DNA from: Bradyrhizobium prioriisuperbiae
Lineage (GTDB): Bacteria; Pseudomonadota; Alphaproteobacteria; Rhizobiales; Xanthobacteraceae
DNA length: 64,000 nt
Direction: 5' to 3'
Assembly (NCBI RefSeq): GCF_032397745.1
Contig: NZ_CP135921.1
Location: 1,860,001-1,924,000 of the forward strand
The stretch's first letter is position 1; each line of letters begins with the position of its first letter. The position numbers and the translations under genes are program-made. This document shows positions 8,288 through 22,214 of the stretch, piece by piece. The notes beneath the pieces are model-generated. The model was not told where the DNA came from. It did not search any database and was given only the letters and a program-made list of their open reading frames with translations.

Positions 8288-10378
8288 CTACTCGGCTGCG
8301 ATCATGGGCTCGCCGGTATCGTCATTCTGGGCGACCAGTTCGTCTTCGTCCTCCGGCAGTTTTTCGCTGGGCTGCTCCGGAGTTTCCTCGGTCGCAGATT
8401 CCGGCGCCTGTTCGACACCAGCGGCGCGGCCCGGCGTACGCAGCGGCTCGGGCAACCAGGCAGTGTCGGCCAGCAGCGCTTCCGCCTCGGTCGCCATGTC
8501 GCCCTTCTTCAGATGCTCGATCCGATCGGCGGCGCGCTGGTCTTTCGCCTGAGCCACCGCCTGCAGGATGCGGGCCTTCGTCACTCGGCCGAGGAAGTTA
8601 TCCACGGTGGGCTTCCAACCGGCCGCCGCCATGTCGAGGTCGACCGCCTGCGCGAGGCGATCGGCGTGGGCGAACGCCCGCGGGCGACGGTTCCAGGGTT
8701 CGTACACGGCGTTCACCGACATGCTGACGATGTGGGCGAACAGGCCGGCCTGGCTGTCGCCGTCCCATTCCTCTAGCGCGCCCCAGAGGTCGGCCGACTC
8801 CTTCGGAAGCGCCTTCGCCCAGCTCTCGTGCCGAGCCCGGATCGCCTCGGCCGATGCGCTGTCGTTCAGCCCCGGCGCCTGCGTGCTGAAGCTGGCGCTC
8901 TTCAGGTCGAGCTCCAGGCAGCTATCCGAGCCGTAGTGGTAGAACGTCTTCAGCGTGAGGACGTGCAGGGCCGCGCGGAAAGCGACGTCGGGCCGTTCGC
9001 CGAGCGCGTGCCGAAGGGCCAGTGTGCGATGCGAGGTCAGCTCGGTCATCAGCCGGTCGGAGATGGGCGACAGACCCTCGTCCTCCTCCGGTTCGGCTAC
9101 AGCCTCGGTCGTCACGATGGCCTCGGCGCCTACGGAGCTGGCGGCGATGGCTCGTTCGTCCTCGTCATCTGCGGACACGTCGGACTCCGGCTCGGCCGCC
9201 AACTCGTCCTCCGGCCGGATATAGCCGCGCTCGACGCGAAGCTGGCCCTCGGCGCCGATGCTTACGAAGGCGCCGGCGCGGGCGACCTCGGCGCTGTCGA
9301 ACACCACGGGCCGGGTCCCGAAGCCCTCCAGCGCGGTTTCCAGCTCCGACAGGCGCTCGTCGACCTCGTCCGGCAATTCGTCGGCGTCCTGGTATTCCTC
9401 GGACAGCCGGTCGAACTCGGCCTGGAGCGCGTCCCGGGTCGCCTCTTCCTCGGCCGTCAGCGCGATGGTCTCGCCCCGAAGCTGGCGCAGACCAAAGGCA
9501 TGGCCGTAGGCGAAATCGGGCGCGACATCGATCCACTTCCAACCCTCGGCGGCCACCGCTTCGGACTCCGCCTTGAGCTTGTCGGCGACCATCTGGTCGA
9601 CGAGCGGGACATCCTGCAGCCAGCCGCCATCGTCGCCCTGGAACAGGTCGCGCAGCACCGTGCCGCCCGCCGCCACATAGGCGTCCACGCCGACGAACTG
9701 TGCCCGCTTGTCAGCGGCCCGGATCGCGCCCTCGGTCAGCATGCGGCGGATGACATAGGGCTGCTTGTCGTAGGAAGCCTTCAAGCGCTCGAACACCTGC
9801 TCCTGGCGCTCATGGTCACCCGAGACGGTGAAGGCCATGAGCTGGTCGAGCGTCATGCCATCCTCGGCATAGACGTCGTGCAATGCCGACGAGACCGACG
9901 CCAGCTTCAGGCGCTGCTTCACCACGTTGACCGAGACGAAGAACGCGGCAGCGATCTCTTCCTCGGACTGGCCCTTCTCGCGCAGCGCCAGGAACGCCCG
10001 GAACTGGTCGAGCGGATGCAGCGGCGCGCGCTGGACGTTCTCGGCGAGCGAGTCCTCCTCGGCGATGCCGCTGTCGCGCACGATGCACGGCACCGGCGCG
10101 GTCTTGGCGAGACGCTTTTGCTTCACGAGCAGCTCCAGCGCCCGGTAGCGCCGGCCGCCGGCCGGGATTTCGAACATGCCGGTCTCGACGCCGGCCTGGT
10201 CGACGACAGCGCGCACACTCAGGCCCTGCAGCAGGCCGCGGCGGGCGATATCGTTGGCCAGCTCCTCGACCGAGACACCGGCCTTCACGCGCCGGACGTT
10301 CGACTGGGAGAGCAGGAGCTTGTTGAAGGGGATGTCGCGCGAGGGCGAGAGGGTGATCTTCTGAACAGTGGTAGCCAT
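8288..10378 (-). CDS. ParB/RepB/Spo0J-family partition-like protein
   Basis: A 696-residue protein, much longer than chromosomal ParB (about 300). It has a ParB N-terminal nuclease-like domain with PAGGRRYRALELL and the ENVQRAPLHPLDQF motif, then an HTH around EEEIAAAFFVSVNVVKQRLK. A long acidic C-terminal extension is rich in Glu and Asp. This large form is typical of Rhizobiales integrative elements and probably binds element DNA rather than acting in chromosome segregation; no parA is seen. Start at 10378 (MATTVQKITLSPSRDIPFNK) chosen for GGAG upstream. Confidence 0.88.
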   Translation of the reverse strand: MATTVQKITLSPSRDIPFNKLLLSQSNVRRVKAGVSVEELANDIARRGLLQGLSVRAVVDQAGVETGMFEIPAGGRRYRALELLVKQKRLAKTAPVPCIVRDSGIAEEDSLAENVQRAPLHPLDQFRAFLALREKGQSEEEIAAAFFVSVNVVKQRLKLASVSSALHDVYAEDGMTLDQLMAFTVSGDHERQEQVFERLKASYDKQPYVIRRMLTEGAIRAADKRAQFVGVDAYVAAGGTVLRDLFQGDDGGWLQDVPLVDQMVADKLKAESEAVAAEGWKWIDVAPDFAYGHAFGLRQLRGETIALTAEEEATRDALQAEFDRLSEEYQDADELPDEVDERLSELETALEGFGTRPVVFDSAEVARAGAFVSIGAEGQLRVERGYIRPEDELAAEPESDVSADDEDERAIAASSVGAEAIVTTEAVAEPEEDEGLSPISDRLMTELTSHRTLALRHALGERPDVAFRAALHVLTLKTFYHYGSDSCLELDLKSASFSTQAPGLNDSASAEAIRARHESWAKALPKESADLWGALEEWDGDSQAGLFAHIVSMSVNAVYEPWNRRPRAFAHADRLAQAVDLDMAAAGWKPTVDNFLGRVTKARILQAVAQAKDQRAADRIEHLKKGDMATEAEALLADTAWLPEPLRTPGRAAGVEQAPESATEETPEQPSEKLPEDEDELVAQNDDTGEPMIAAE

Positions 10379-10551
10379 CGGGATGTACTCCGCGACGAGC
10401 GCCGAAAGCCTCTCTCTCGGCATGCAACTCGTCACGAAGCGCAGCGCCGCCCTCTTCCTCTGAAGGGCAGCGCCGCGAAACCGACGATCAGGAAAGACGG
10501 AAAGGCACGAAGCCGGAGACACGCTTTTCCGCATCTCCAGCTTTCCGGGAG

Positions 10552-11748
10552 TCAGGCTGCCCGGTGGAGCAGCTTCTTGGCCCGCGCCTCCAAGTCGAGC
10601 CGGGCGTCTTGGTGGGTCTTGTCGCGCGCAACGGCCGTGATGCCCTGCACGAAGTCGAACACACTCTCAGGTTTGCGCCCTTCCTCGGCGAGCACCGTTT
10701 CGATGATCTTCGCCGTCTCGGTCTTCGAGAAACCGCGCTTGCGCAGAAACTCGCTGCGGTCATCGTCGGTGCGGGCCACGATCTTTTCCCGCGCCGCCTT
10801 GATGCCGTTGACGAAGGGCATCGGCGAGGAGTTGGCGAACCGCATCAACGCCGGCGCAGCCTCATGCGCGAAGCGCGAGGCGGCATATTTCGAGTGGCGG
10901 ATGGTGATCTCCTCGAAATCCTCGACACCCCAGAGATTGCGGTTCTGGCAGACGGCGCGGAGATAGAAGCTCGCCATGCCGAGGGTCTTTGCGCCCACCT
11001 CGGAATTCCAGCAATAGAAACCGCGGAAGTAGAGATCGGGCGAACCGTCGGGCAGCCGGCCGGCCTCGATCGGATTGAGATCGTCGACCAGGAAGAGGAA
11101 GACGTCTCGATCGGAGGCATAGAGCGTCGTCGTATCCTGCGTGACGTCGACGCGCGGGTTGTAGATGCCGGTTGACCAGTCGAGCACGCCCGGGACTTTC
11201 CAGCGTGTGTCGCCCGTGCCGTTGCCGGCGATCCGCTGCACGGCCGCGACCAGCTCGTGGTCGAAGATGCGGCCGTAGTCAGGGCCGGTCACGGCTCGCA
11301 GCTCGACGCGACCATCTTCGATTTCGAGCGTCTTCACCTGCTCGGCGCGATGGGACGTCAAGCCGTATTGCAGATTGATACCGGCCAGCGGCGCCGGAAG
11401 CTGCCGCAGATAGGCCGCCGGCGCTCCGACCAAGCCGGCGAGTTGACCGAAGCTCCAATGGGTCGGCGCGATTGGCGTATCCGAGCCGGGCAGCATCAGC
11501 GCCAGGCGCTCAGCATCGTCGCGACTCGCCTCCACCCGGATCGCCGCGCTCTCGACGGTTCGGGTCCGGCTACGCTCGGTCCGCCCATGCACGGCGGCAT
11601 AGAGGTCTGACAGGGAAAGATAGCGCTCGTCAGCGGGCCTCGAAAACCATTCGGAGGACACGCGGCCGATCCGCTCGCCGCGGGTCACATCCACCTTGTA
11701 GCCGCCAGCGCGGTCGCGAGCGGCGTCCAGAATCTCCACTTGGGTCAT
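10552..11748 (-). CDS. DUF932 (phage/plasmid-like) domain protein
   Basis: A 398-residue protein with the DUF932 pattern: a leading region through WFSRPADERYLSL, central GPDYGRIFDHELV, and CQNRNLWGVEDFEEITIRHS near residue 285. DUF932 proteins are common on plasmids and ICEs; their function is not established. It is the first gene of the leftward maintenance block (DUF932, ParB, toprim, DUF2493), 173 bp upstream of parB. Confidence 0.85.
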   Translation of the reverse strand: MTQVEILDAARDRAGGYKVDVTRGERIGRVSSEWFSRPADERYLSLSDLYAAVHGRTERSRTRTVESAAIRVEASRDDAERLALMLPGSDTPIAPTHWSFGQLAGLVGAPAAYLRQLPAPLAGINLQYGLTSHRAEQVKTLEIEDGRVELRAVTGPDYGRIFDHELVAAVQRIAGNGTGDTRWKVPGVLDWSTGIYNPRVDVTQDTTTLYASDRDVFLFLVDDLNPIEAGRLPDGSPDLYFRGFYCWNSEVGAKTLGMASFYLRAVCQNRNLWGVEDFEEITIRHSKYAASRFAHEAAPALMRFANSSPMPFVNGIKAAREKIVARTDDDRSEFLRKRGFSKTETAKIIETVLAEEGRKPESVFDFVQGITAVARDKTHQDARLDLEARAKKLLHRAA

Positions 11749-11958
11749 GGCTAGTCTCCATGACGGGCGCCGGAGGCCTCTCCTCCAGCCTTCAACCCGT
11801 CACGGCGAAGCCGGCCGTCCTCTCCCTCTAAAGGGGGCGTTGCGGGGATCCCTCCCCGCAGAAGGGGGTGCGTCGGCGACCGCGGCGGCGACCAGGGGGA
11901 AGGCTTTCCCCTCCAGGCCTTCCAGATCGCGGTCCAACAACTTCCAATTAGCGGACCA

Positions 11959-12013: not shown

Positions 12014-13285
12014 ATGTTCGAGCGGTTTGTGGAGCGACGGGCGGAGGAAGCCCTTTCAGATACGCCGGTGGTCCTGATCGTAGGCCCGCGCCGTGCCGGC
12101 AAGACCACGCTCGTCCGAAAAATGGGAGAAGCCGGGCGGACCTATATCACGCTCGACGATCAAACGGTCCTTGAGGCCGCCCAGTCAGATCCCGCCGGCT
12201 TCATTCGCGGCCTCGACCGGGCCATCATCGACGAAATCCAGCGCGCTCCTGACCTCCTGCTGGCCATCAAAAAGACGGTCGACGAGGACTATCGGCCGGG
12301 CCGCTTCCTGCTGACTGGCTCGGCGAACGTCCTGACCTTGCCGCGAGTCGCCGATAGCCTGGCCGGCCGGATGGAAACCATCCAGATGCTGCCGCTCGCA
12401 AGGGCGGAGGTCGAAAGTCGGACGCCGACTTTCCTGGAGCATCTATTCGGAGGAAAGCTCCGGAGCCAGCGGGAGGCGATCCTCGGCGACAACCTTACCC
12501 AGCTTGTCTTGCTCGGCGGCTTCCCCGAAGCGATCAGTCGCGACAGCGAGCGGCGGCGGCAGGATTGGTCAAGATCCTATCTCACGTCGGTGCTGACGCG
12601 CGATCTGCGGGATATCGCTGACGTCGAGAAGCTGACGGAACTTCCGAAATTCGTAAGGCTGCTGGCCGAGCACTCCGGCCAGTTGGTCAACTATTCGCAG
12701 TTCGGCGCCGGCATCAACGTCAGCCACAAGACGGGCCAGCGCTATGTCGGGCTGCTTGAGCAGGTGTTCCTGATCGCCACCGTGCAACCATGGTTCACCA
12801 ATGCCCTGAAGCGCATCGTCAAGACACCGAAGCTGCACTTCCTCGATTCCGGCCTGCTAGCGACTGTGCGCGGTCTTTCCTTCGACAGGGTCAAGGCGGA
12901 TCGCGGCACGTTCGGCGCGCTGCTCGAAAGCTTCGTGTTCGCGGAGGTTCTGAAGCTGATGACGGCCTCGGACCTGCGGCTGACACCGCATCATTTTCGG
13001 GATCGGGACGGGCGCGAGGTGGACATCGTGCTGGAACGTGATGATGGGATGATCGCGGGCATCGAGGTCAAGGCGAGCGCGACGGTCAAAGCCGGTGATT
13101 TCGGCGGCTTGCGGGCCTTGGCCGAGGCGTGCGGAGACCGCTTTGCCTTTGGCGTCGTCCTTTACGACAGCATGGACGTCGTGCCGTTCGGCGACAGGCT
13201 GGCGGCGGCGCCATTGTCGAGTCTCTGGGATGGAAAAGCGCTGCCGAGCAAGGCAAGCAAGGGAGCGCCACATGGGGCTCTATAA
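12014..13285 (+). CDS. AAA-type ATPase with DUF4143 C-terminal domain
   Basis: A 423-residue protein. The P-loop GPRRAGKT is at residues 24-31 and the Walker B IIDE at 71-74, followed by a sensor region (LLTGSAN). The C-terminal DUF4143 part ends in a PD-(D/E)XK-like core, RDGREVDIVLERDDG then IEVKAS near residue 355. Family members are usually lone ATPases of unclear role, some suspected of nucleic-acid functions. Here its last 14 bases overlap hamA (start at 13272), so the two are translationally coupled. That makes it either an accessory Hachiman component or a hitchhiker. Confidence 0.85.
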   Translation: MFERFVERRAEEALSDTPVVLIVGPRRAGKTTLVRKMGEAGRTYITLDDQTVLEAAQSDPAGFIRGLDRAIIDEIQRAPDLLLAIKKTVDEDYRPGRFLLTGSANVLTLPRVADSLAGRMETIQMLPLARAEVESRTPTFLEHLFGGKLRSQREAILGDNLTQLVLLGGFPEAISRDSERRRQDWSRSYLTSVLTRDLRDIADVEKLTELPKFVRLLAEHSGQLVNYSQFGAGINVSHKTGQRYVGLLEQVFLIATVQPWFTNALKRIVKTPKLHFLDSGLLATVRGLSFDRVKADRGTFGALLESFVFAEVLKLMTASDLRLTPHHFRDRDGREVDIVLERDDGMIAGIEVKASATVKAGDFGGLRALAEACGDRFAFGVVLYDSMDVVPFGDRLAAAPLSSLWDGKALPSKASKGAPHGAL

Positions 13286-14054
13286 AAAGTGGTGCGACGG
13301 CACAAAAGAGAAGGACAAGCGGAAGTGCTACTGGACGTATGTCGAGAAGGAAGGTGCCCGCGACGAAATTTGCGATGATCTCGCCGAGACGATCCGCTCG
13401 CATTACGACCGGCTAGAACGCATCGCCGAGGACGTGAAGCGGCTCGGATATGACGTCGCCGCCAAGATTCTCAGCGAGGCGATGCCGCAGACGCCCAAAG
13501 GCCGCTCCGGCGATCTCGGTGAGATTCTCGCGACCGAGCTGGTTGAGGAGGAGATCGGCCTGCGCGTCCCGGTGCGCCGCCTCCGCTACAAGGATGGTCG
13601 CAACATGGCCATGCGTGGCGACGACTTCATCGGAGCCGGATACGATGCGGCTGGCGAGAAGCTCTGGCTCCTGAAAGGCGAAGCCAAGAGCAACAAGGTG
13701 CTCGGCAAGGCCACGGTCACGAGCGCGCGTAAGGTGCTCAATCGCGACAATGGCCGCTGCACGCCCGATTCCTTGTTGTTCGTCGCCAACCGCCTGCTGG
13801 AGAGCAATGACCCGGACGACAATGCGCTGGGCCGCAGTCTCCGTGACGAGGTCGGGCTGAAGTCGCTTCGCGCCGATCGCATCGACCACATGCTCTTCAC
13901 CGTGTCGGGCAACGGCCCTCATGCTTCGCTGAAGGAGGATCTCGACGCCGCAGGGACCAATCGGGACCACTACGTCGTAAACATCCACGTCGAGGATCAC
14001 CAGGACTTCATCGCGGCCATGTATCAGGAGGCTGAAGATCTTGGAGACGATTAA
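13272..14054 (+). CDS. hamA: Hachiman-type defence protein HamA (DUF1837-like nuclease)
   Basis: A 260-residue protein followed by an overlapping DEAD-box helicase gene, the hamAB layout. It has the elements of a PD-(D/E)XK nuclease: GDLGE at residues 80-84, RGDDFIG at 115-121 and KGEAKS at 135-140 (E137, K139). In Hachiman, HamA is a nuclease held in check by HamB and released by DNA damage or phage. Start at 13272 chosen over the upstream ORF start at 13095 because AAGGGAG lies 7 bases before it. The assignment rests on motif layout and context; another nuclease-helicase family is possible. Confidence 0.7.
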   Translation: MGLYKKWCDGTKEKDKRKCYWTYVEKEGARDEICDDLAETIRSHYDRLERIAEDVKRLGYDVAAKILSEAMPQTPKGRSGDLGEILATELVEEEIGLRVPVRRLRYKDGRNMAMRGDDFIGAGYDAAGEKLWLLKGEAKSNKVLGKATVTSARKVLNRDNGRCTPDSLLFVANRLLESNDPDDNALGRSLRDEVGLKSLRADRIDHMLFTVSGNGPHASLKEDLDAAGTNRDHYVVNIHVEDHQDFIAAMYQEAEDLGDD

Positions 14055-17000
14055 CGAACTGACCGCGTTCCTAGCGACCGCGACTGTCGACGGCATCCTC
14101 GGGCGGCTGCTCTATCGTGGTGCAGCCTGGTCGCTGATGCGCAAGGAAGGCGTGTTGCCGCCGAATGCGCCACCCCTCGGCGCAACGATCGAAACGGATC
14201 TTGCCGAACACGGCTTCGCCCTGCTTCGGGGCGCGATGGCCCTGCGTACTCAGGCCGGTGCATCGGAATTAACCGGCAAGGCGTTCGAGCGCGCCGCCAA
14301 CGCCTTTGAAGCCCTTGTACGCAACGGCGCCCCGGAGTCGCCCGATCGCGGTTTCCGGCGCACGATCGCCGCTGCGGCCTACCACTTGGCCGGCTTCTCC
14401 GCCGTCGCCTATTCGCTCTTCAATGAAACGGCGGATGACCTCAATGCTTCGCCGGGCGAAACGGCGATCCGGCACCTGATCCTGCGCGACCTTAGCCAGT
14501 TGCGCGGCTTCGTGCGCGAGTGGTTGGACGATGAGGCGCACGACGACGAGCAGATCGCCGAAACGCTGACGGGCGAAGAGCCCGACATCGACGAGGCCCT
14601 ATCGACAATCCTCAACACGACGATATGCCGGGCGCTAGCTTATTTCGACTTCGCGCTCGAGACGGGCGAGCCCGAGCCGATCGAACGCGCGCGGGAGCTG
14701 CTCGGCACAGCGGTCAGTCTGGCGAACAACGCCGAGAATGTTCCGCTGTGGTGGATATCGAACCTTTGCCGGCACCTGATCGACGACCTCTGGCAGCACT
14801 CGTTGCACCAGAACCTGCCAATCGAACCTCCCGAGGGAACGGAGGAGAAATACCCGGACCTCCGCCGGTTGTTCATCTCGTCGCTCTACGCCCGCAAGAC
14901 CTCCGAGGTGGAGCTATGGCCATCGCAGCGCGAGGCGGCCCAGCGCTCCACGGACGTCAACGACGATCTGGTCGTCGCCCTGCCAACCAGCGCTGGCAAG
15001 ACGCGAGTGGCTGAGATCGCCGCGCTGATGACTTTGTCGTCGGCGCGACGTGTGCTGATTGTTACGCCGTTGCGCGCCCTGTCGGCGCAGACCGAGCGGT
15101 CCTTCCGGAAGACCTTCGCTCCTCTCGGCTTCAGCGTCTCCTCTCTCTACGGCGCTAGCGGCCTTTCGGCCGGTGATGAGGATGCACTGCGCACCCGTGA
15201 GATCATCATCGCGACGCCCGAGAAACTCGACTTTGCACTGAGAAGCGACCCCTCCCTGATCGACGATGTCGGCCTGATCGTCCTGGATGAAGGCCATATG
15301 ATCGGCCCGAGTGAGCGTGAAATCCGCTATGAGACGCTGGTGCAACGCCTGCTTCGGCGCGCCGACGCAGCCGACCGCCGGATCGTCTGTCTCTCCGCCA
15401 TCCTGCCGAGCGGCGATGAGCTGGACGATCTCACCGCCTGGATTCGTTCCGACGAACCGGGGGAGCCTGTGCGTTCCGATTGGCGCCCGACGCGACAACG
15501 GTTTGGGGGGCTCACCTGGCGGGGCAAGGATGCACTGCTCCGGCTCGACCTCGACGACGATGGTCCGTTCCTTGACAAATTCGTCGTGGAGAAAGCCCCA
15601 CGGGGGAAAGAGAAGAAGCCCTATCCCCGCAAGAACTCGCACCTTGCGGTGTTCGCGGCGTGGGAATTCGCGAACCAGGGCAAGCGAACCCTAATCTTCT
15701 CGACTCAGGCGAATTGGGTCGAGAGCTACGGCAAACAGGTGGTGGACCTCTGCAAGCGCGGCTATCTGGAGTCCCTGCTAGATGACGAGGCGTCGATCGC
15801 CCGCGCCCTGGAGGTCGGGACGGAGTGGCTGGGCGAAGACCATCCTGCCGTCGCCTGCCTGAAGCAGGGCGTCGCCATCCACCATGGCCGGCTGCCGAGC
15901 CCGTTTTTGCGGGAGCTGGAAGCTCTCCTGTCCGACGGCGTCCTGAAGGTCATCGTCGCATCGCCGACGCTCTCGCAGGGCCTCAATCTCAACGCCGCCG
16001 TGCTTTTGGTGCCCGCGTTATATCGGGCGGCCGAGAAGATCAAAGGCGAGGAGTTTGCCAACGTCGCCGGTCGCGCAGGGCGAGCCTTCGTGGACGTTGA
16101 AGGCCTCATCGTCCACGTCATGTTCGACAAGATCGATTGGCGAAAGAAGGAATGGGGGAAGCTTGTCGCTTCCACCAAAGCCCGCACACTGAAGAGTGGC
16201 CTCATCCAGATCGTCGCCGAGATCCTTGAGCGCTTGTCTCGCGAGGGAGTCCTGGATCGCGATGATGCGTGGGAATACCTCGCCAATGCCCGCGAAGCCT
16301 GGAGATCGCCCGAAGAAGAAGCCGCAGTCGCCGCGCGACTGGCCGCCGGCGCGGAATACGATGCCGACGGCGACGACGATGAAGGCGGCGGCGATGACAT
16401 GAAGAGACCATCGACGAGGAGCCGCTTTCACAGATCGTTGAGCGCCTCGATGCGACGGTGTTTGGTCTGATCGAAGCACTCGATTCCGATCGCGCCGACC
16501 TGCCGAAGCTCTTGGACGAGGCGCTCAAGGGGTCGCTCTGGGCCCGCCAGATCGCTCGTGAGGATGAGGATGTCGCCCCGCTGCACAAGAAGGTGTTTGA
16601 AGCGCGGGCCGATCTCATTTGGAAGACCACAACCGCACAGGCGCGGCGTGGGCATTTCGCCATGGGCGTCGGGCTTGAAGCGGGTCTCACTATCGACGCC
16701 ATGGCCGATGAGCTGGCCGAACTCCTCGACCGGGCAGATGCGGCGTCACTAAGCGGCGACATCGACGAACTTGTCGATGCGCTCGGCGGCCTCGGCGAGC
16801 GGCTGCTGTTCATGCGGCCCTTCATCCCAGACAAGGCCAACGCGCTGCCGGCGAATTGGAAGGCCATCCTGCGCAGTTGGGTGTCTGGCGAGGACGTTGC
16901 CAAGATCGGACCGCAGAACATGCGGGCCGTTGAGGAGGCCTTCACCTATCGCTTGGTCTGGGCGCTGGAAGCCGTGCGTACCAGGCGGATGTCGCTCGGC

Positions 17001-17543
17001 TGGTCGCCGGAGGTGGTGGCAGGCGGCGCCGCCGCCGCGGTCGAAACTGGTGTCCCGCAATTCATGATGTCGATGCTGATTCGGGCTGGTCTTCCGTCTC
17101 GGCGCGCTGCCATGGCGGCGATCGAGGATGCCAAGCCTGTCTTCGTCACGCCCGCTGAGATGCGGGCCTGGCTCTAGTCTGACGAGATCACGGCCTACAC
17201 GGATGCCGGCGACTGGCCCACTCCCGACACCGCCGCATTGTGGGCGCGCTTCCGGACCGAAGCTCTCAGCGGCGGCATCCAGAAATGGTCGGTCGAACAC
17301 TATAAGCGGCTGCTCGACATCGCCGCCGCCCCGCCTGCCGGCCTCTACAGGATCGTCACCGACGAGGGGGACGGGAGGACGTGGTTGGCAACGCCCGACT
17401 ACCAGCGGGTGGCCGCATTCAAGAAGCCGGCTGTCGATCCCAAGCCCAGCCTTTTCTCAGGCAGGTTGGCCGGCAACACCAGGCTCGTGGAAGCCTTGCG
17501 CGTCGGCCGCGGGAAACTGCGTTGGCCGCAGGCCGATGCGTGA
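14041..17543 (+). pseudogene. hamB: HamB-type DEAD/DEAH helicase, interrupted by a frameshift and an amber codon
   Basis: Starts at a TTG (14041) with a perfect AGGAGG nine bases upstream, overlapping hamA by 14 bases. Residues 1-290 are a helical N-terminal region; PTSAGKT (motif I, 315-321) and DEGH (motif II, 416-419) follow, then NVAGRAGRA (motif VI). Near 16398 the frame is lost in a GAT/GAC-rich linker: inserting one base in GATGACATGAAGAG restores a continuous frame (EETIDEEPLSQIVERLD onward). That frame then meets TAG at 17175-17177 and continues as coding-like sequence (SDEITAYTDAG...) to a TGA at 17541. Intact, it would encode about 1167 residues. The helicase core up to 16470 (809 aa) could still be made. 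Confidence 0.7.
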
Positions 17544-17557
17544 AGGAGACCGTAGCC

Positions 17558-17683
17558 ATGCTCTACGCTGGGTTGGAGATCAAAAACGCGCTGTGTTCGC
17601 GGATGGACAAATGGCAATCCGCCGTGGGCGCGGCGGCATCTCCACTGCCGTCATTCCAACGGAAGGGCAAACCCAAAAGATGA
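17558..17683 (+). CDS. 41-codon leader ORF coupled to the TIR-APAZ gene
   Basis: ATG at 17558 has AAGGAG nine bases upstream and opens a 41-residue basic ORF (MLYAGLEIKNALCSRMDKWQ...). Its TGA (17681-17683) overlaps the ATG of the TIR gene as ATGA. The TIR start itself has only a distant GGAAGGG, so the small ORF may deliver ribosomes to it. No similarity recognised; it may be a translational-coupling leader or a true small protein. Confidence 0.45.
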   Translation: MLYAGLEIKNALCSRMDKWQSAVGAAASPLPSFQRKGKPKR

Positions 17684-19059
17684 AACTGGCTGCGCCGACA
17701 GAACGAGACCTGATCTTCATCTCCAAGGCGACGCCTGGCGACGACCAGTTCGTGTTGTGGCTCGCGCCGCGTCTCGAAGCCGCGGGTTACAAGGTTTTCG
17801 CCGACATTTTCGATCTCGACGCCGGCGACGAATGGCGCGGCAAGCTCACCGCGACCCTTCAGACAAGGGCGATCAAGATGTTGCTGTGCTGCAGCGACGA
17901 AACGCTCGGGAGAAGGGGCGTGCGCGAGGAAATTGCCATAGCCGAGGACCTGACAAAGCAGCTCCAGGATCCCAATTTCATCATCCCCCTCAAGGTACGC
18001 ACATTCCAAAAACTCTTCGGCATCGGCGGCCTTCAGTATGTCGATTTCGAGAGTGGCTGGGCCAAGGGACTGGCGAGCCTGCTCAAGTCGCTTGAAAGGC
18101 AGCAGGTGCCGAAGGCTGGCGGCGGGATCATACAGCCCGAATGGTACGCGCATCTGCGCCGGCGCGCCGTGGAGATCGAGACCGCTCCCGAGGTCCTGAC
18201 ATCCAACTGGCTCCGGATCATTCGGATGCCGGACAAGCTCAATCATCTGGTGCCGCGCAACCGGGCCAATGAGGCTTTGCTGCGCAAGCTCGGCGCGTCC
18301 TTCGAATACCCGATGGCCGAGTTCGGCGACGGTTTCCTGACCTTCGCCAGCCCGCTCGACCTAACAGAACATTTTGAGCGGGTGGGGCCGTTTCGCGCCG
18401 AGCGTGACTTCGATGTTCTCGATCTCCTCGAGAACGGCTCATCGGACGCGGGGATCGAAAGCCGGGATGCCCGATCGATCATGATGAATCTCCTGCGCCA
18501 GGCGTGGGAGAAGCATTGCGCTCGCGAAGGGTTTCTTACCCACACCTTCTCGAGTGGCCTGTCCTTCCATGTCGGCGAGGACAAATTGGGTCTCAAGAAG
18601 CGTGTCTCATGGGGCCGCCAAGGTCAGAGCCGCAACTCGATGCTGCGCGGCGTCGCCCGCAAGAAGATCTGGGAATATGGCGTCAGCGTTATTCCCAGCC
18701 TCTTTCCCTACCCACATATGCGCCTAAAAGGCCGGGTGCTGTTCTCCGACATCGGCGAGCGCAACAAGCCGATTGTCATTCCAGACACGAAAACCCAGTT
18801 TCGCCTGCGGCGTTCGATCTGCTCGGCCTGGCGCAACAAGGCCTGGCACGGGCGTGTGATGGCGTTCATGGAGTTGATGGCCGGCGACAGCCCCTATGTC
18901 GACCTTGCCGTCGGCTCGGGCGGCAGCATCACGCTCGACGCGATGCCGATCCAGTTCACGGCACCCGTCACCGCGCGCCAGACCGACAAGCTCGGCGAGG
19001 ATGCGGAAGAAGCCGATTCCACAACGCTCGGCGGCCACTTCGAGGAGGATGACGCTTGA
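17680..19059 (+). CDS. TIR-APAZ protein of a short-Argonaute (SPARTA-type) system
   Basis: A 459-residue protein. Residues 8-140 are a TIR domain: [20 protein letters not shown], an [16 protein letters not shown] strand-loop, [10 protein letters not shown], and the [11 protein letters not shown] helix carrying the presumed catalytic glutamate (E83 or E84). The rest fits an APAZ domain, which pairs with short Argonautes. In characterised SPARTA systems guide-directed recognition of invader DNA makes the TIR domain hydrolyse NAD+, killing or arresting the cell. Length and order match that family. The ORF is open further upstream, but the ATG at 17680 starts just before the TIR domain. The pAgo gene overlaps its stop codon. 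Confidence 0.85.
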
Positions 19060-20612
19060 TCGAACTTCCCGAAAAGTCCGTTCCGGTCCTCTACATTCCG
19101 GAACCACCGCTCGGATTTGGGCATGGGCAGGCTTCGGATCATCCGAAGGACGGTCTCACGCTTTACGGGCCGGCGTCGATGCCCGATCGTGCGCAGATCA
19201 CGATCGGCGCGATTGGTACAAAACATGGCCTGGACCTCCTGCGCCGCTGGCTCCAGGCGATCGGCAATCCCGTCGCGATTCCGCCTCGCGGCAAGCGCGA
19301 CAAAGAATTCCGGCTGCATCTGTCCGACTTTCCCGGTCTCGAAGAGGCCTTCGGGATCCGCGCCGATCCGGGCGCCATGATTACATGCGAGATCGATCCG
19401 GCGGACATCCGCGCCGCGATTGCGATCGAGAACCATCACGAGGCGGTGGCCGCAACGACCAAGCTGTTCATCGACCCGATCGAGCGTCACGCGAAAAATG
19501 AGGAGCGGACAGTTGACGTCTGGATCTTCGTGGTGCCGGAAATCGTGTTCGAAACCTGCCGGCCGGTTGCGGGTCAGCGCCGCAAGGTCGAGCTCCTAAA
19601 GGGGGAGTTGTCTAGGCGCCAGAAGGGGCGCGCCGACCTTCCGCTGCTGGCGGGAGTCATTGATGACACGCTTGAAGCGGTGTTCGACGACATCCCCGAC
19701 TTCCACCGTCAGATCAAGGCCAAACTTTTGAAGCTGGGCATGACCTCCCAGCTCATTCGCGAGACGACGCTTGCCCCCGAGGAATTCGTGAACAAGGCGG
19801 GATATCCAAAGCGCGGCACTCAGGATTCCGCCACCGTCGCCTGGAACCTGGCGACGGGCCTGTTCTACAAAACGCAGGCTGAACCCCCGTGGAAGATCGC
19901 CGGTATGCGGCCGGGCGTCTGCTACGTCGGCTTGGTCTTCAAACTCCTTCCCAATCATCCCGACAATCACGCTTGCTGTGCGGCTCAGATGTTCCTGAGC
20001 GAAGGGGATGGCGTCGTCTTTCGCGGGGCGAACGGACCCTGGCAGACCGAAAATAGAGAATTTCACCTCAGCGATCTGGCGGCTGGAAAGCTGATCAAGA
20101 CGGTTCTGGACACCTACAAGCAGCGCTTCGGGGTCTATCCGAAAGAGCTGTTCATTCACGGCCGAACCAAGTTCAACGACGCCGAATGGGAGGCCTTCAG
20201 CAAGGCCGCGCCTGATGGCACCAATATCGTGGGTGTGCGTATCCAATCGACCCATGGGGAGACCAAGCTCTTCCGCGACGGTGATTATCCGTGCCTGCGC
20301 GGCACGGCAATCCAGCTCGGCGACAAAGACGCTTATCTGTGGACCACTGGATATGCGCCGCGCATCGACACTTATATTGGCCCTGAAACGCCGAACCCGC
20401 TGTTCGTGACCGTGCTGCGCGCGAGTGGTGAATTTCCGGCCATCGAGACTGTGCTGGCCGACATCCTGGGCCTCACAAAAATCAATTACAACGCCTGCAA
20501 TTTCAGCGACGGGCTGCCGGTCACCATTCGTTTCGCGGACAAGGTTGGCGAAGTGCTGACCATGGGAAGCGCCGCAGGGGCAGAGCGGCAGCCGTTCAAA
20601 TTCTACATCTAA
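19056..20612 (+). CDS. Short prokaryotic Argonaute (MID-PIWI)
   Basis: A 518-residue protein with MID-PIWI features only: no PAZ domain, RHFT-like nucleic-acid-binding middle, and a C-terminal PIWI region including the [16 protein letters not shown] strand-helix, [16 protein letters not shown] and the [19 protein letters not shown] segment. The usual DEDX catalytic tetrad is not apparent, as expected for short pAgos. The start is TTG at 19056, overlapping the TIR-APAZ stop (TTGA), with AGGAGG seven bases upstream. It should form a heterodimer with the TIR-APAZ protein and use small guides. Ends 20 bp before the convergent integrase gene. Confidence 0.88.
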
Positions 20613-20631
20613 TGATGGCGGCGGTTGGAAG

Positions 20632-21990
20632 CTACGCGGCCAGCTGTTGCTTCTCCTCGCCTTCCGCCTCGTCGTCACCGGCTGCCTTGAGAAGGAAGCG
20701 AGCGAGTGCGGCCTTCCGGGAGTCGCGGTCGAGCGCGTAGGCGGTCTGCTTGAATTCTTTGCCGTCGAGCAGGCCTGCGATGTACCCCGCGATTGTGTCG
20801 GCCGCCATGATGAGCGCGGTGTCGAGCGTGTGGATGTAATTGCTCGTGACAGAACCCTTCGCGTGGCCGACCAAAGCGGCGATTGTCATTTCGGTGAATC
20901 CCAGGTCGTTGGCCAGACTCGCGAAGCTGTGCCGCAGAACGTGAGGTGTCACGTCAGAGAGGGGCGAGCCTTTGAATATCTGCTCCCAATGTCGCGGGAG
21001 GCCGCCAAAAGCATTGTCCTCGCCATAGCCCGGGATGACGTATGTGCCGGTGGACGTCTCCCGCCGCTCTTCCATAAGCTCCACGACGGGCAAGCCGACG
21101 GGGCGAACGGACATCCCTTCCTTGCTGGCGATCAGGCGAAGGCAACTTCCCTCGGCGTCCACCTCCGCCCACTGCAATCCGACGATTTCGCTCCGTCGGC
21201 AGCCGGTTAAAGCGATCAGCCTGATAATGTCGATGCTTGGCGCGAACTTGTCGTCCTCCTGGGCCTTTCGAAGCATATCGCCCAACGTCCGGTACTCAGC
21301 TTCGGTCAGGCGGCGCGTGCGGACGGCGTCTTTCGGTTTCCGAACGCCATGAGCGGGGTTGTTGCTGATAATCCCGGACTCGATCGCGTAAGTAAGAATC
21401 CCGCCCAGCAATGAAACGGTTCGCGCGGCGGTTCCGGCTCCTCCCCGCACAATCGCTTTCCCGCGCAGCTTCCCGGTTTTTTCGGACATCCGCGTCTTAC
21501 CAACGATTACGTCGTTCATCATCTTTATGACGTCGGCCTTGGTAAGATCCTTGACGCGACGCGTGCCGACGAGCGGGATGATATGGCGGTTGATGCGACC
21601 GGTATCGGTGGCAATCGTATGCGACTTCTTGGAACGCCCGCCCTTTCCCCGGATAAGGCCGGCGTTCATGTCATTGACGTAGAGCGTACAAAGCTCCCTG
21701 ACCGTGATGGCTTTGTGATCGAGCTGGCGCTCCTCGGCAGGATTGTCTCCCTGCGCCACTCGGCCGAGCTGGACCTTGGCTTCCTGTCTCGCGCTTTCCG
21801 CGGTCCAAACGCCGTGCAAGCCGATCGTGAAGCGACGGGAGCGGCCGAGCGCTCGGTACTGGAGGACGTAGCTGCGCTTTCCCGATGCGAAGACACGCAA
21901 GCCAAAGCCTGGTAGCTCGTCATCCCAGATGACGTAGTCCTTCTCTCGGGACTCGGCTGCATCGACGAGGCGCTTAGTGAGCTTAGCCAT
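20632..21990 (-). CDS. Tyrosine-type site-specific integrase of the element
   Basis: A 452-residue integrase with an N-terminal DUF4102-type arm-binding domain (1-90), a SAM-like core-binding domain (about 95-205) and a catalytic domain. Catalytic residues: R265 (TGCRRSE), K290, H350-x-x-R353 (HVLRHSF), H376 (VGHAKGS) and Y385. The ORF could begin at 22095, but ATG 21990 follows GGGAGAAG and starts at the family N-terminus. It faces away from the tRNA-Arg fragment 180 bp to its right, the usual position for a P4-like integrase. It would excise and insert the element at tRNA-Arg(CCG). Confidence 0.93.
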   Translation of the reverse strand: MAKLTKRLVDAAESREKDYVIWDDELPGFGLRVFASGKRSYVLQYRALGRSRRFTIGLHGVWTAESARQEAKVQLGRVAQGDNPAEERQLDHKAITVRELCTLYVNDMNAGLIRGKGGRSKKSHTIATDTGRINRHIIPLVGTRRVKDLTKADVIKMMNDVIVGKTRMSEKTGKLRGKAIVRGGAGTAARTVSLLGGILTYAIESGIISNNPAHGVRKPKDAVRTRRLTEAEYRTLGDMLRKAQEDDKFAPSIDIIRLIALTGCRRSEIVGLQWAEVDAEGSCLRLIASKEGMSVRPVGLPVVELMEERRETSTGTYVIPGYGEDNAFGGLPRHWEQIFKGSPLSDVTPHVLRHSFASLANDLGFTEMTIAALVGHAKGSVTSNYIHTLDTALIMAADTIAGYIAGLLDGKEFKQTAYALDRDSRKAALARFLLKAAGDDEAEGEEKQQLAA

Positions 21991-22021
21991 GGGACTTCTC
22001 CCGTCCGAACGCTTGATTTCG

Positions 22022-22159
22022 CGTAAGCACCACGTAAGCAGTGGGGCGCAAATCGGAGCGTGTTCTAGGATAAGCCGGGCGAGGCCGAATTTCAAATTGT
22101 TTAGTGATTACAGTAGTATAGAGCATCGGGGCAAACCCTGTCGACAAGCGTCGTAAGCA
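22022..22159 (+). repeat. Three direct repeats of CGTAAGCA between integrase and att site
   Basis: CGTAAGCA occurs at 22022-22029, 22033-22040 and 22152-22159, all in the same orientation, within 140 bp and ending 9 bases left of the tRNA fragment. An 11-bp spacing separates the first two. Position and arrangement suit arm-type integrase sites or excisionase sites. Function inferred. Confidence 0.45.
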
Positions 22160-22168
22160 GGAGTACTT

Positions 22169-22214
22169 CCTCCGAAGGCAAAGGTCACACGTTCGAATCG
22201 TGTCGGGTGCGCCA
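22169..22214 (+). other. Element attachment site: 3' part of tRNA-Arg(CCG)
   Basis: The sequence from CCTCCGAAGGCAAAGG through ACACG-TTCGAAT-CGTGT and CGGGTGCGCCA is the anticodon loop (CTCCGAA, anticodon CCG), right anticodon stem, variable loop, T arm and acceptor 3' end of tRNA-Arg. The bases to the left (GTACTTC) cannot form the left anticodon stem, and no D arm exists, so the gene is cut at the anticodon loop. Tyrosine integrases commonly cross over there. By this geometry the element lies to the left and the intact tRNA gene should lie at its other end, outside the window. Confidence 0.8.

Follow-up and report, generated by a model that had tools for sequence, protein, structure and literature searches.

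How does a gene pair encoding a TIR-APAZ protein and a short prokaryotic Argonaute (pAgo) come to stand at the end of a broken Hachiman operon, and what might it do there? This question is raised by a 64,000-nt stretch of the Bradyrhizobium prioriisuperbiae genome (contig NZ_CP135921.1, positions 1,860,001 to 1,924,000 of the forward strand), which we call the window and number from its first letter. A preliminary description of this DNA had recognized a SPARTA-type pair, that is, a short pAgo with a TIR-APAZ partner, and had presented it as a mobile module beside an integrase on a tRNA-integrated element; the broken Hachiman operon upstream, a junction at about 17657–17670, and a second element at the same tRNA were absent from it. 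Our analysis identifies the pair as SPARTA, a new example of an already known type of system, and indicates that it was very probably brought to the end of the Hachiman operon when tRNA-Arg islands of two kinds recombined.

An Intact SPARTA Gene Pair

The TIR-APAZ gene occupies positions 17680–19059 of the plus strand and encodes a 459-aa protein, with the TIR domain at about residues 9–140 (including Glu84) and APAZ after about residue 160, borders that were set by analogy with PMC11156904. The short pAgo gene follows on the same strand at 19056–20612 and encodes 518 aa from a TTG start that overlaps the TIR-APAZ stop, the shared four bases being TTGA at 19056–19059. This start is supported by the presence of the same TTGA overlap in all nine of the closest relatives found (L098–L106; related loci carry the prefix L and genomes the prefix G). 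Both frames are open and full length, so lengths, overlap, and integrity agree with the preliminary description.

Profile searches, which that description had proposed, gave strong matches for both proteins. TIR-APAZ matches Pfam TIR_2 (2.9e-18, residues 12–135), PADLOC Aga_TIR-PNTD1-PNTD2 (1.5e-151, residues 4–457), and the solved SPARTA chain 8qlo_A (1.3e-44, residues 9–450), the last two alignments extending over the region, residues 150–459, in which an APAZ match had been expected. An AlphaFold model of this protein (28 sequences) has a mean predicted local distance difference test score of 83.3 and a predicted template modeling score of 0.60. As for the pAgo, it matches PADLOC pAgo_I at 2.3e-206, residues 11–518 aligning to positions 4–493 of a 493-position model, and five solved SPARTA chains at 2.1e-117 to 4.6e-109 (369–396 bits), over nearly the whole length of the solved pAgo chains; the remaining solved chains listed all score 153 bits or less. 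According to the PADLOC and solved-chain alignments, the protein consists of MID and PIWI only, without PAZ.

Placement of the pAgo in the short clade, as the preliminary description had supposed, was borne out by a maximum-likelihood tree of 50 pAgos, in which 40 rows, including the window protein and the solved SPARTA chains 8fex_B and 8qlo_B, stand apart, with 100/100 support, from ten further short pAgos, of which eight come from genome loci and two are solved chains. This tree is midpoint rooted, carries a long-branch warning (L047, 9om4_B, and others), and leaves out five of 13 distant loci whose frame read uncleanly. Both genes appear to evolve under constraint, with ratios of nonsynonymous to synonymous substitution (dN/dS) of 0.037–0.105 against L098, L099, L100, L103, and L104, pairwise values that mostly reflect the history before the pair was joined to its present neighbors and leave its present state unsettled.

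The arrangement is common to the relatives. Among the best 80 of 450 loci, which were kept from a scan of named genomes, TIR-APAZ sequence precedes the pAgo in all 80, the exceptions to a complete pair being four loci cut by contig ends, L105 without the TIR, and L171 in two pieces. The L105 locus (Rhodovarius lipocyclicus, around 8015) encodes a pAgo 94% identical to that of the window, and has lost the first ~130 TIR-APAZ codons, that is, the TIR, so that APAZ and pAgo remain. At L091:293–3703 (G736), TIR-APAZ and pAgo are read in a single open frame of 1136 codons, a single-chain SPARTA with ~185–190 further N-terminal residues; a TIR-APAZ protein doubling as a short pAgo had been noted before (PMC6299218).

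Catalytic and Guide-Pocket Residues

Functional positions were taken from PMC11156904 and carried over by alignment through the 8fex chains. The presumed TIR glutamate that had been picked out earlier in the motif VREEI is Glu84, which aligns without gaps to Glu77 of solved SPARTA, and E77A is the catalytic mutant of that system (PMC10474274). The guide 5'-phosphate pocket is also kept, with His207, Lys211, and Asn468 of the solved pAgo corresponding to His217, Lys221, and Asn479 in the window. In the DEDX tetrad of PIWI, the first three positions are replaced (Val284, Tyr328, and Arg362 correspond, via 8fex_B, to Val294, Phe336, and Arg370), and the fourth is Asp495, which is also an Asp in 8fex_B and an Asn in the protein of PMC11156904. 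With three of the four catalytic residues absent, the PIWI site is judged to be inactive.

The window pair therefore has much in common with solved SPARTA (8qlo, 8fex, and others): the same TIR-APAZ gene beside a short pAgo, near end-to-end alignment, similar lengths (459 and 518 aa versus 452 and 507 aa), the TIR catalytic glutamate, the guide 5'-phosphate pocket, and an inactive PIWI. In contrast, sequence likeness is only moderate, and the TIR of the window begins with FISK while the solved one begins with FISH.

A Recombination Junction Behind a Broken Hachiman Operon

Immediately upstream of the pair lies a Hachiman operon on the plus strand. The hamA gene (13272–14054) is open, encodes 260 aa, and matches Pfam HamA at 9.9e-26 and PADLOC HamA1 at 1.4e-112. 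The hamB gene (14041–17543) is broken, and is matched by the PADLOC HamB1 profile (PDLC00174) in three pieces covering profile positions 2–776, 799–1043, and 1065–1162: frame 1 ends at 16470 (codon 810), frame 3 continues from about 16400, and an in-frame TAG follows at 17175–17177, ahead of the hamB end at 17543. A programmed frameshift was considered and set aside, since the nonsense codon also follows. The hamB genes of three related Hachiman islands, L208, L209, and L210 (in G049, G265, and G220, respectively), have 1167–1170 stop-free codons. HamA and the hamB pieces are 95–97% identical to those of G049, with dN/dS values of 0.031–0.049 for hamA and all hamB pieces, which points to damage that is either recent or partly due to faulty assembly. 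An intact hamA nuclease gene thus stands beside its broken hamB partner (13272–17543).

In L208–L210, hamB is followed after 14–15 nt by a third gene of 233–235 codons and, further on, by a related integrase. This third gene (L208:6253–6954 in L208, where it has no Pfam or PADLOC match) looks CoiA-like, which we offer as an assumption. The window retains only about its first 40 codons, as a frameshifted 5' stub at 17558–17683 on the plus strand, recognized by a peptide match and by nucleotide homology to the L208–L210 islands. In the TIR frame the stub peptide, WVGDQKRAVFADGQ... (it begins WVGDQKRA), aligns to residues 5–36 of the third-gene product. The stub has an open frame of 41 codons whose final ATGA overlaps the start of TIR-APAZ, and a GAAGGAGA run precedes the ATG of this frame. 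This overlap, whether it arose by accident or by selection, would allow translational coupling of the stub to TIR-APAZ. Compared with Hachiman as a system of HamA nuclease and HamB helicase, the window therefore has a complete hamA, a broken hamB, and SPARTA where most of the third gene would be.

It is within this stub that homology passes from one kind of island to another. In blastn alignments, homology to the Hachiman islands L208, L209, and L210 stops at 17607, 17657, and 17591, respectively, and homology to islands carrying SPARTA begins at 17670 (L098) or 17701 (L099 and L100). The match to L099 (Mesorhizobium sp. B4-1-3) runs from 17701 to 22214, through SPARTA, the integrase, and the tRNA end, with 84.9% identity over 4527 columns, whereas the integrase part is only 70–72% identical to the Hachiman islands. 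Hachiman homology that has ended by 17657 and SPARTA homology from 17670 onward mark the window island as a recombinant of two island kinds, with the junction at 17657–17670, limits given by the ends of the blastn matches.

Two Tandem Elements at One tRNA-Arg

The integrase that had been noted directly beside the pair is a tyrosine integrase on the minus strand (20632–22095; Pfam Phage_integrase 2.1e-16, Arm-DNA-bind_3 3.2e-15), ending 19 nt past the pAgo stop. Beyond it, on the plus strand, lies the right attachment site (22169–22214), an exact repeat of the last 46 nt of tRNA-Arg(CCG). Exact 46-nt repeats begin at positions 1817212, 1827364, and 1882169 of the host contig (G000). The first lies in the intact tRNA-Arg(CCG) gene (1817181–1817257), ~65 kb to the left and outside the window; the other two belong to exact copies of the 3' end of that gene, one of 49 nt that ends at 1827409 and one of 46 nt that ends at 1882214, or window position 22214. 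The earlier description of a tRNA-integrated element is thus supported by attachment repeats and integrase, with the qualification that the tRNA gene itself is not in the window (ARAGORN found none), only its last 46 nt.

Three copies of the tRNA 3' end indicate two tandem elements at one tRNA-Arg. The first, of 10.15 kb (L062:7243–17409, equivalent to G000:1817243–1827409), has its own integrase and encodes a protein that combines a MobA-type relaxase with RepB primase domains. The second, of 54.8 kb (G000:1827410–1882214), has SPARTA and the accompanying integrase at the right end, and positions 1–22214 would be the share of it that falls in the window, as judged from the three repeats and the integrase. 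Two sister genomes (G001 and G002) were searched for an empty site, and a single match to the tRNA end was found in each, within an intact tRNA-Arg; past the tRNA the right flank of the island does not align in them, and alignment of the left flank is only partial, in G002. Stretches of DNA within 8995–11919, over a ParB-like gene and an adjoining gene, resemble several of the other defense islands (L086, L087, L104, L105, L208, L209, and L212) and represent a common backbone. That the pair is mobile, as had been proposed, is consistent with the integrase, with the attachment repeats, and with pAgos 94–98% identical to that of the window in SPARTA pairs of several other families.

At a wider scale, 54 of 391 genomes in the family group of the host have a short-pAgo match of any type at E 1e-10, and relatives of the window pAgo, distant short pAgos included, occur in 102 of 72,556 plasmid records, 83 of them covering at least 80% of its length. 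Another genome of the host's genus (G001) has a different short pAgo, only 29% identical (L005).

SPARTA Behind Other Defense Operons

In seven of the nine closest loci found (L098–L103 and L106), SPARTA comes immediately after the hmaC gene of an Hma operon, the distance from the hmaC stop to the TIR start, by longest-open-frame calls, being 0 nt in six of them (L099–L103 and L106) and 112 nt in L098. The Hma genes, which encode a helicase, a methylase, and an ATPase, make up a candidate system (PMC8565338). The Hma-linked pairs of a proteobacterial metagenome-assembled genome (MAG; L098), L099, Brucella pecoris (L100), and Xanthobacter autotrophicus AM3 (L103) encode pAgos 94–98% identical to that of the window and have the same TTGA, and L099 also has the integrase and tRNA end in common with it. 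They follow hmaB-hmaC, whereas the window pair follows a broken Hachiman operon. Upstream of SPARTA in L104 is an unrelated short frame.

The order HmaB-HmaC-TIR-APAZ-pAgo recurs in an Acidobacteria MAG (L114:1845–8999), and since its HmaC is only 37% identical, the Hma-SPARTA pairing is either old or has arisen more than once; the same order is seen again in L081 (G176). Other upstream neighbors include a type IIG restriction enzyme (L085), AbiEii (L086 and L087), GajB (L075, on the same contig as L123), and a reverse transcriptase defense gene (L127). With genes called as longest-open-frame guesses, a same-strand frame stands 60 nt or less upstream of SPARTA in 17 of 90 scorable loci, one of which is L171 with its own broken TIR frame, suggesting that most SPARTA pairs are not tightly coupled to an upstream gene.

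A conserved pairing of Hachiman with SPARTA was also considered and rejected: in none of 95 related loci, four of them cut at a contig end, does HamAB immediately precede SPARTA on its strand, and in L161 HamAB lies convergent on the other side of SPARTA. Within the stretches examined, SPARTA was found at none of six Hachiman loci (16 genomes with a match, the host included) and at none of 12 Hma loci (13 genomes with a match); one stretch, L224, extends only 0.8 kb downstream. Nor did the literature searched, mostly openly accessible, yield a description of SPARTA linked to Hma or Hachiman.

Relatives with a Nuclease-Like Domain Have Lost the TIR Glutamate

Some relatives of the window pair (for example, in Rhizobium, Mesorhizobium, and Erythrobacter) have the same TIR-APAZ-pAgo core, with pAgos 54–61% identical. 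They differ by an extra N-terminal restriction endonuclease (REase)-like domain and by the loss of the TIR catalytic glutamate, and the window has neither change. The glutamate was scored across 96 loci, namely, the best 80 of 450, 15 more (L080–L094) whose pAgos are ~36–48% identical to that of the window, and the window itself. The 14 loci L066–L079, several of which are contigs of named loci (L066 is L103), were omitted, five loci cut or deleted at the site were unscored (L105, L112, L124, L134, and L149), and some rows are near-copies. The glutamate is present in all 57 scored loci without the REase-like domain, the window included, and absent from all 34 scored loci with it (24 Asp, 5 Leu, 3 Asn, and 2 Val). 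The latter fall between L137 and L177 (for example, L139, L145, and L173) and a quick tree of pAgos puts the REase rows into one 35-row group whose sole unlabeled member is L149, which is cut at a contig edge. Because these rows are related, the loss counts as one or a few events, not 34.

At least 95% of the 34 aligned REase domains have a GxDxxxDGR ... QAK pattern, which we take to resemble the motif of PD-(D/E)XK nucleases. Retention of the nuclease with loss of the glutamate suggests that the nuclease took over from the TIR as effector in these proteins. In the window protein, tblastn with two REase queries found no REase extension, and since Glu84 is kept, its TIR is probably the working effector. 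An REase domain in the open frame just upstream (17128–17679) was rejected as well: the REase queries were negative in the window, positions 17128–17544 have no PADLOC family match, and the frame is the hamB end and the stub read in other frames. REase-TIR-APAZ proteins were described in 2009 (PMC2743648), and it was proposed in 2023 that APAZ proteins with both REase and TIR carry out two functions simultaneously (PMC10810196). We found no report of the lost TIR glutamate in the literature searched, which was mostly openly accessible.

Alternative Explanations

Several observations weigh against a working SPARTA that moved to this site. The transfer of positions is imperfect, three of the 14 residues of PMC11156904 that were checked (35, 362, and 484) differing in the 8fex chains. 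Among the positions carried over that are reported to matter in solved SPARTA, the MID-MID contact pair Gln35/Tyr37 is not recognizable, being aligned to Met42/Ala46 in a poorly aligned stretch, and 8fex_B itself has Asn35; Leu159 of the bridging helix (PMC10474274) becomes Arg161; Ala502 of the dimer contact becomes Pro513; Tyr105 of the TIR site becomes Phe109; and Tyr148 of the guide pocket becomes Phe165. The Pfam Piwi model has no match in the pAgo, and none of 50,697 phage records matches it. A consensus promoter scan of 12800–20700 returned zero sites, even before hamA, and is hence uninformative on transcription, and the broken hamB could lower SPARTA expression by polarity.

Might the pair be of another kind, or act by other means? 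Assignment to a different short-pAgo type, such as SPARSA or SPARDA, draws on weaker matches to other solved short pAgos (153 bits to 9om4_B, 141 bits to 9jsb_A, and down to 62 bits to 8in8_C), and we consider it ruled out, its probability being negligible, since solved-chain scores, partner gene, and tree all place the pair with SPARTA. That the TIR is only a scaffold and another effector does the work, as seems so in the REase-bearing relatives, is suggested by the persistence of a TIR without its glutamate in all those scored; it is nevertheless highly improbable here, where Glu84 is present, no REase extension was found, and the upstream frame has no family match.

The state of the upstream genes gives more weight to two further explanations, each of which we regard as unlikely, though much less so than those above, and neither more than the other. 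One is that the pair, although intact, is silent and is carried along by a decaying island on which the genes upstream are failing. The frameshift and nonsense codon in hamB and the cutting of the third gene to ~40 codons fit this view, as does the 0-nt spacing after hmaC in six of the nine closest relatives found, where the pair appears to depend on the upstream operon. Yet both genes are free of lesions and have low dN/dS against five relatives, no terminator-like site separates them from hamB, and the 41-codon stub, with its GAAGGAGA run and ATGA overlap, could couple their translation. The other explanation turns the hamB lesions into assembly errors, so that a complete Hachiman-SPARTA operon would work as a two-layer defense. 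It finds support in the low dN/dS of hamA and the hamB pieces against G049, from which any decay must be very recent, and in the frameshift, a type of error that sequencing may introduce; against it, one lesion is an in-frame stop codon and a third lies in the stub, all three are concentrated at ~16400–17600 while hamA, TIR-APAZ, pAgo, and the integrase have no frame break that was noticed, and truncation of the third gene stands regardless of the reads.

Proposed Mode of Action and Implications

We therefore return to a SPARTA that recombination placed behind the Hachiman operon. Solved SPARTA binds a guide RNA, and target single-stranded DNA leads to a tetramer in which the TIRs hydrolyze NAD(P)+ (PMC10474274, PMC11156904). 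By analogy with these relatives, the short pAgo and TIR-APAZ would bind a short 5'-phosphorylated RNA guide as a heterodimer; pairing of the guide with invading plasmid or phage DNA would cause complexes to assemble, the TIR domains would pair up and hydrolyze NAD(P)+, and the cell would stop or die ahead of the spread of the invader. The pair is thus probably an NAD(P)+-depleting abortive-infection module, in keeping with the preliminary description. No terminator-like site was found on the plus strand between hamB and TIR-APAZ, so the SPARTA pair is probably transcribed with the Hachiman operon as its last genes. It would have come to this place when tRNA-Arg islands of two kinds, with related integrases, recombined, Hachiman and the third gene being on the one and Hma and SPARTA on the other.

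Tentatively, and as an idea more doubtful than not, SPARTA may, in this lineage, be an add-on at the 3' end of other defense operons that swaps its host operon by recombination, built into Hma operons and here moved into a Hachiman operon where it replaced most of the third gene. Transcription of the front-line system would then always bring this abortive alarm with it, and the alarm could outlive the breakage of that system. The contrast between the TIR glutamate and the REase domain makes effector replacement within SPARTA testable, and it argues against the suggestion that APAZ proteins with REase and TIR may employ the two together as effectors (PMC10810196). For the host's family group, in which short pAgos are not rare, the window pair adds a SPARTA member, and its junction, narrowed to ~13 nt, shows a pAgo alarm traded between unrelated defense operons on islands with related integrases.

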